A DNA stretch of 40,915 bases from Rhodospirillaceae bacterium (GTDB taxonomy: Bacteria; Pseudomonadota; Alphaproteobacteria; UBA7985). The stretch is from NCBI GenBank assembly GCA_002711265.1, contig PAGB01000035.1, positions 29,000 through 69,914 of the forward strand, in the 5' to 3' direction. Positions 17,204-36,915 of this stretch are shown here, one piece after another; the stretch's first letter is position 1, and each line of letters starts with the position of its first letter. Position numbers and translations under genes: made by a program. A model generated the notes under the pieces. The model had not been told where the DNA came from, did not search any database, and saw nothing but the letters and a program-made list of their open reading frames with translations.

Positions 17204-18166
<963 letters not shown>

Positions 18167-18204: not shown

Positions 18205-18468
18205 GTATTCTTGTTCATCCACGACCTGACTAGAGCGCCGCCCGTGCCGACGCAAGCCACCCTGAGGACGACCGTGGTTTGCATCTGACAACTGCGAAAT
18301 GGCGTGAGCCTCGCAAAATTTCACCGCGACCCGATCAACACAAATTGGATCTCGACGCTACAATTTACCCTCGAACTCCGATTCACAAATTATGCCAAAA
18401 AAAAGATTATATGTTTTTCAGATAGTTAAAGCATTTTTAATCAGATTTGTGTTTTCGAGTCGTTGGCA

Positions 18469-18485
18469 TTGGCACTGCAGTTGCG
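18469..18485 (+). promoter_or_regulatory. Sigma-54 (RpoN)-type promoter
   Basis: TTGGCACTGCAGTTGCG contains the -24 GG (18471-18472) and -12 GC (18483-18484) with exactly 10 bases between them, and matches TGGCAC-N5-TTGC in full. Transcription would start near 18496. AT-rich DNA lies upstream, as is common where an enhancer-binding activator and IHF act; the activator sites are not identified. Confidence 0.7.
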
Positions 18486-18495
18486 TATCATCCTG

Positions 18496-18596
18496 TTATC
18501 TCGGGTGGATCGCAGTTTTCAGCGACAGCCTTTGATTATTTGATCCCTCTTCTTGCAGCCTCCTGGAGGTGCGTTCGCCGCACCTCCTTTTTTTTT
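18496..18596 (+). ncRNA. Probable sigma-54-dependent small RNA, about 100 nt
   Basis: A promoter (18469-18485) and a strong intrinsic terminator (18565-18596) on the same strand bracket about 100 bases with no ORF. The predicted RNA has a 5' region that can fold (TCGC/GCGA around 18510-18526, or GGATC 18507-18511 with GATCC 18542-18546), a pyrimidine-rich single-stranded stretch (about 18545-18564, with CCTCTTCTT and CCTCCT, able to pair with Shine-Dalgarno-like GGAGG), then the terminator. It does not match a family I recognise. Alternative: an attenuated leader of ridA, whose start is 67 bases after the U-run. Confidence 0.62.
18565..18596 (+). terminator. Intrinsic terminator of the small RNA
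   Basis: GGAGGTGCG (18565-18573) pairs perfectly with CGCACCTCC (18579-18587) over a 5-base loop, followed by nine T (18588-18596). It points only to the right because there is no A-run on its left. No protein gene ends here on the plus strand. Confidence 0.9.
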
Positions 18597-18663: not shown

Positions 18664-19128
18664 ATGGCTGGCACCATCGACGCGCGCCTGCGCGACCTCG
18701 GCATTACCCTTCCAGACGCCCCCGCCCCCGTGGCCAACTACGTACCCGCGGTGCGGACCGGTAATCTGCTGTTCATCTCGGGGCAGGTCGCCATGGTCAA
18801 TGGAAAGCCCGAAGCGGGCCGCCTCGGTGAGACAATGGAAGTCGAAGCCGGTGCCGAGGCGGCGCGCGCCAGCGGGCTGTCGATCATTGCCCAGTTGGCA
18901 AAGGCACTCGACGGCGACCTCGACCGCGTGGTGCGGATCGTCAAGCTGGTGGGATTTGTGAACTGTACCCCGGATTTTGTCGACCAGCCGCGGGTGATCA
19001 ACGGCGCGTCTGACTTGATGGTCGAAGTCTTCGGCGACAAAGGTCGCCATGCGCGTTCTGCGGTGGCCTCTCCCTCCCTGCCGCTGGGGGTGCCGGTAGA
19101 GGTGGAAGCCATCGTCGAGGTCGAGTGA
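18664..19128 (+). CDS. RidA/YjgF-family protein
   Basis: Small 154-residue Rid-family protein; the archetype hydrolyses reactive enamine/imine intermediates made by PLP enzymes and works as a cytosolic homotrimer. It has the carboxylate-binding arginine R131 (HARSAVA) with E146 at the spacing seen in RidA, LLFISGQVA (35-43) and the VPVEVEAIVEV C-terminus. Its length places it in the longer YjgF-like subgroup, so enamine deaminase activity is likely but not certain. AAGGAG lies 7-12 bases upstream of the ATG. The stop overlaps the nth start by one base. Confidence 0.87.
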   Translation: MAGTIDARLRDLGITLPDAPAPVANYVPAVRTGNLLFISGQVAMVNGKPEAGRLGETMEVEAGAEAARASGLSIIAQLAKALDGDLDRVVRIVKLVGFVNCTPDFVDQPRVINGASDLMVEVFGDKGRHARSAVASPSLPLGVPVEVEAIVEVE

Positions 19129-36748: not shown

Positions 36749-36915
36749 AAAAAAACCTTTCCGCATTATCCGAGTCTCCATCCGGTTTGGCATTGCCCTT
36801 GCCAAGTCTTGCTGTACTGACCCTGAGAGGGGGCGGGGCCGAACAGGTATCGCAGCTTGTCCAAACCTGAAAAGGACCAGAGCGCGTGACATCGGGAAAA
36901 CCGGGCACGTTGCAC

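Follow-up and report, generated by a model that had tools for sequence, protein, structure and literature searches.

The 509-base gap between the divergent genes mdh and ridA of an uncultured alphaproteobacterium very probably contains a stand-alone small RNA gene, about 101 nt long, transcribed from a sigma-54 promoter. Granted such an RNA, a LuxO-like response regulator encoded elsewhere in the genome is its probable, if far from assured, activator. We incline slightly towards a complete arrangement in which the RNA acts in trans, the LuxO-like protein binds a site around 210 nt upstream, IHF bends the intervening DNA and a linker within the RNA pairs with its targets; transcription, sigma-54 dependence, binding by the LuxO-like protein, the role of IHF and base pairing are each what we infer from sequence. 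The window is the whole 40,915 nt stretch analysed (Rhodospirillaceae bacterium, GCA_002711265.1, contig PAGB01000035.1, 29,000-69,914 of the forward strand), in the coordinates of which the features are:

17204-18154, minus strand: mdh, malate dehydrogenase, an open reading frame and divergent neighbour of the small RNA
18279-18291, no strand assigned: candidate LuxO-type upstream activating site TTGCATCTGACAA, about -217 to -205 from the predicted start, with a degenerate 3' half
18416-18428, plus strand: IHF-like site TTTCAGATAGTTA, about -80 to -68, between the activator site and the promoter
18469-18485, plus strand: predicted sigma-54 -24/-12 promoter TTGGCAC-N4-GTTGCG, TTGGCACTGCAGTTGCG, its GG and GC at N10 invariant in six genomes
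18496-18596, plus strand: predicted small RNA gene of about 101 nt, starting 12 nt after the GC element, with conservation resuming at about 18497
18498-18536, plus strand: predicted 5' stem-loop of the RNA
18547-18560, plus strand: C/U-rich linker CTCTTCTTGCAGCC, near-invariant and left single-stranded by the consensus fold, through which the RNA is likely to base-pair
18565-18596, plus strand: predicted intrinsic terminator, a 9-bp stem and nine T
18664-19128, plus strand: ridA-family gene, an open reading frame and downstream neighbour, with homologues in 32 of 41 genomes

The initial annotation had described a gap of 509 bases free of protein genes; this length is exact, and a check of the open reading frames revealed no credible protein gene inside it. 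A 12-codon frame running from GTG to TGA within the small RNA, open in five of the six genomes of the genus, was rejected, as it has no ribosome site, its amino acids vary and it is broken in G003. The reported GG-N10-GC promoter was likewise found in TTGGCACTGCAGTTGCG, with GG at 18471-18472 and GC at 18483-18484, and it differs from TGGCAC-N5-TTGCW at one position only, the last base being G. The -24/-12 motif alone is no rarer than chance, the window holding 22 sites of up to two mismatches where 21 would be expected; it is because they are conserved in all six genus genomes that the element and the small RNA together stand above chance. The genome also encodes rpoN, along with three enhancer-binding proteins.

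Conservation was assessed through a DNA search of 41 genomes, which at the sensitivity used matched the element in every one of the six genus members and in none of the other genomes. These six represent about two independent clades, and two of them are incomplete (G002, 72%; G003, 63%). Mean column identity reaches 0.91 in the -24/-12 block and 0.85 in both the RNA body and the terminator, whereas it is 0.62 in the 11 bases leading to the predicted start, none of which is an invariant column, 0.66 upstream and 0.69 in the gap preceding ridA. The promoter and the RNA of around 100 nt are hence conserved as two islands with an unconserved spacer in between, the pattern expected from a sigma-54 promoter and an RNA starting near 18497. 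Conservation in relatives sharing the mdh-ridA neighbourhood, on which the initial annotation had staked its proposal, therefore extends to all six genomes.

The terminator was also as originally described: its stem (18565-18587) has nine perfect pairs around a 5 nt loop and is followed by nine T (18588-18596), it operates on the plus strand only, and it scores better than shuffled sequences. The RNA as a whole folds more stably than shuffles (z = -3.2), and the consensus fold consists of the 5' stem-loop, the single-stranded C/U-rich linker and the terminator. A covariation search had been suggested as a check, and across the six genomes compensatory changes were found in both larger helices, three pairs in each having changed on both sides; these six pairs, comprising 14 cells, compare with 3.4 pairs and 5.6 cells in shuffles. 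Of the helix cells, 99% are able to pair, as against 90% in shuffles and 34-56% with slid partners. This constitutes good but not overwhelming support for the predicted helices, given that there are about two clades among the six genomes. The RNA is present in a single copy in the genome, and the earlier failure to recognise its family held up, in that no Rfam family matched it at threshold; Qrr was absent from the Rfam matches with E values up to 10, and from those of the other genomes too.

Outside the genus (g1), another family of its order, f3 (G007, G009 and G010), gave a weak match that immediately precedes ridA and shares its orientation; the divergent neighbour there is rplU in place of mdh. 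This f3 unit is well conserved and ends in a terminator, and shares CCUUYGAUUNUUUG with the genus RNA. The similarity outside the terminator is marginal when taken alone (p around 0.05); the position and orientation in front of ridA make homology likely, though not proven. The promoter of the f3 unit is of sigma-70 type, TTGACC-N17-TACTTA, with no GG-N10-GC, despite which these genomes encode a LuxO-like protein. Palindromes of the form TTGC-N6-GCAA lie about 96 nt before its -35, and in G009 also at 132 nt. No further relatives were evident in 385 genomes of the class: a class-wide search with the first model yielded only chance matches beyond the genus, the combined model only chance matches beyond the order, those checked never adjoining ridA or mdh, and a promoter-plus-core scan of named genomes gave four matches, all attributable to chance.

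These comparisons bear on three other accounts of the locus. Were the RNA transcribed by sigma-70 and the -24/-12 match fortuitous, the boxes overlapping that element in the window (TTGGCA-N17-TATCAT, 18463-18491) and the promoter of the f3 unit would both be explained; however, G001, G002 and G004 have not kept the hexamers while GG-N10-GC persists throughout, and conservation lapses between promoter and RNA, making this account quite improbable. A cis-acting role as a leader of ridA, with the sigma-54 promoter driving that gene and the terminator acting as a regulated attenuator, is distinctly unlikely. It would fit the recurrence of a terminator-ended unit ahead of ridA, and codirectional with it, in both the genus and f3 regardless of whether mdh or rplU lies opposite; nevertheless, the terminator arm has no conserved antiterminator partner, its perfect nine-pair stem is maintained through compensatory changes, and the 67 nt gap which follows holds a conserved block, TACCACT, which may be the -10 of ridA itself. 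It is the missing antiterminator and the promoter that ridA seems to possess that make this the weaker rival. Lastly, the top Rfam match is mmgR/suhB (RF00519), which aligns over the full model with 23.3 bits, but the gathering score is 41, the aligned letters are largely terminator, a match of equal weakness (23.6 bits) exists elsewhere in the same genome, and above-threshold members are found at other positions in genomes of two sister families. That the RNA is a diverged member of this alpha-r8 family is accordingly very hard to credit.

The three true enhancer-binding proteins of the genome (G000) are NtrC and NtrX, the genes for which lie close together, and the LuxO-like response regulator, a 547 aa protein on contig C57 that contains the GAFTGA motif. 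It matches the LuxO family NF041946 with 618.8 bits, the next family being 244 bits lower at 375, yet falls below the curated cut-off of 800 bits; it is LuxO-like, then, rather than Vibrio LuxO itself. Among PDB entries it matches Vibrio LuxO best (5ep0, 479.6 bits, with 321.5 for the next protein). Eleven residues are required for DNA binding by V. cholerae LuxO (PMC11407668), nine of which are identical in the LuxO-like protein, the exceptions being V420, replaced by I, and L429, replaced by R; the helix-turn-helix reads GGNIPKAAALLGISASTIYRKRQ. Few of the eleven are shared by NtrC of the same genome. The family and PDB matches, together with the contact residues, make a LuxO DNA specificity plausible.

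The Vibrio LuxO upstream site is TTGCAWWWTGCAA (PMC10162802). An exact TGCA-N3-TGCA lies upstream of the LuxO-like gene in eight of nine members of the order with a protein of this type, spanning families f1, f2 and f3, whereas about 0.005 per gene would be expected, as estimated from the length searched. Because of this excess, the LuxO-like proteins probably recognise the Vibrio-type palindrome and regulate their own genes. In G000 the palindrome (L117, contig C57) is around 160 nt before the luxO-like start, and the others are at L113, L114, L115, L116, L118, L120 and L121. The first of these (G006, contig C154) has an in-frame TAA in its luxO-like frame, which is intact in the relative G008, reflecting either a pseudogene or a sequencing error. 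The neighbourhood of the luxO-like gene contains no LuxU and no sensor kinase, and a weak suhB-like match in front of it, considered as a second small RNA, proved to be the terminator of a Bax1-I gene. LuxO-like proteins of type A were not found in the incomplete G002 and G003. Three genus genomes (G004, contig C6; G002, contig C22, L119; G005, contig C22) encode a second LuxO-like protein, a paralogue about 500 aa long, which recalls the LuxO/SypG pair of Vibrio fischeri.

The palindrome TTGCA-N3-TGCAA was chosen from the identity of the activator, ahead of any ranking, and in the 200 nt upstream it has 12 mismatches over the six genomes, the fewest of all 1024 palindromes of the form NNNNN-N3-NNNNN. 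This rank is a fairer measure than the column-shuffle p < 0.001, which ignores the clustering of conserved columns. There is a single such candidate, with one to three mismatches per genome to TTGCANNNTGCAA, and its distance to the -24 box stays at 190-191 nt throughout the six; one clade has GACAA or GGCAA as the 3' half, the other (three genomes) CGTAA. A conserved CTTGNC-N17/18-TAGNNA block at 18220-18262 on the minus strand is a probable mdh promoter, and the candidate site lies just beyond its -35, such that the box could act on mdh also, or instead. Between site and promoter, the IHF-like motif WATCARNNNNTTR has eight mismatches in total over all six genomes, equalled by 0.94% of letter-permuted motifs, so that activator site, bend and promoter would follow one another in the customary order.

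The same sigma-54 RNA might alternatively be activated by NtrC or NtrX and report nitrogen status in the manner of Pseudomonas NrsZ. Both ntrBC and ntrYX are present, NtrC being detected even in the incomplete G003, and alphaproteobacteria are known to have nitrogen control circuits that include small RNAs (PMC10746234). Set against this, the best NtrC-type site upstream of the promoter carries 34 mismatches over the six genomes and is no better than chance (p = 0.14), and nor does a CAA-N5-TTG site stand out; we regard nitrogen control as unlikely. Of the analogies initially drawn with Qrr, GlmY/GlmZ and NrsZ, it is the Qrr-like one, under a LuxO-like protein rather than NtrC, that the upstream DNA and the set of activators in the genome favour.

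Under control by the LuxO-like protein, that regulator would bind the TTGCA-N3-TGCAA-type site about 210 nt upstream, the DNA between site and promoter probably being bent by IHF, and would open the promoter at 18469-18485 for transcription of the RNA by sigma-54 RNA polymerase. The transcript would fold into the stem-loop, linker and terminator, and the linker would probably pair with mRNAs.

This resembles the LuxO-Qrr circuit of Vibrio in its sigma-54 promoter, its LuxO-type activator with a candidate upstream site, its small intergenic RNA ending in a terminator, and the LuxO box that also precedes the luxO-like gene. It differs in that the RNA is unrelated in sequence, lacking any Rfam Qrr match, and does not adjoin luxO; in that no LuxU or autoinducer receptor was identified here; and in that the host belongs to the Alphaproteobacteria, with one degenerate site rather than the two perfect LuxO sites of Vibrio fischeri qrr1 (PMC10162802). 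The RNA is not a member of the Qrr family, but may work like one. Resemblance to the NrsZ and NfiS nitrogen small RNAs of Pseudomonas, which are sigma-54-dependent and stand-alone, ends with those two properties, as neither an NtrC site nor an Rfam match was detected. GlmY/GlmZ, a sigma-54-driven small RNA system of enterobacteria, likewise has no Rfam match here, and no GlrR-type activator is among those seen. The mmgR/suhB RNAs, found in the same class of bacteria, have a similar 5' hairpin, C/U-rich linker and terminator, but differ by their 23.3 bits versus 41.

The initial annotation had proposed that the C/U-rich stretch could pair with ribosome binding sites. The stretch is indeed conserved, but complements of the seed were not enriched over the control in the six genomes, and the target search produced no conserved match at start codons. 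Duplex energies with the leaders of ridA, mdh and luxO-like were not consistently better than those of shuffles. By its architecture, a trans-acting base-pairing RNA is nonetheless most likely. With regard to the incoming signal, the ShkA-TacA pathway of Caulobacter is responsive to c-di-GMP (PMC7010744), and by analogy the LuxO-like proteins of alphaproteobacteria may receive signals other than quorum sensing.

LuxO-driven small RNAs are known from the Vibrionaceae, and a literature search found no LuxO-driven small RNA circuit for the Alphaproteobacteria. The chances seem to us evenly balanced that this class has a LuxO-type activator in control of a sigma-54 small RNA unrelated to Qrr, either as a module predating the Vibrionaceae in which the RNA was replaced, or through convergence. 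If so, this would supply a concrete candidate target for the LuxO-like activators of alphaproteobacteria, would mean that a switch of the Vibrio kind may operate well beyond Vibrio, and would allow one to ask whether the wiring of LuxO to small RNAs is older than Vibrio quorum sensing. According to PMC3616915, TacA and other activators of S. meliloti had as yet no known targets. The possible promoter swap at the same place in two families, between sigma-54 and sigma-70 types, would furthermore offer a testable case of small RNA rewiring.

Two further sigma-54-like sites were observed. At 36787-36802 the window holds a second perfect match to TTGGCAY-N5-TTGC, with no gene downstream on that strand, the terminator of a convergent gene after it and no evident small RNA following. 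Elsewhere in the genome (L083, contig C27, 6509), a perfect sigma-54 consensus directly precedes a small secreted-protein-like gene, which is another candidate member of the sigma-54 regulon.
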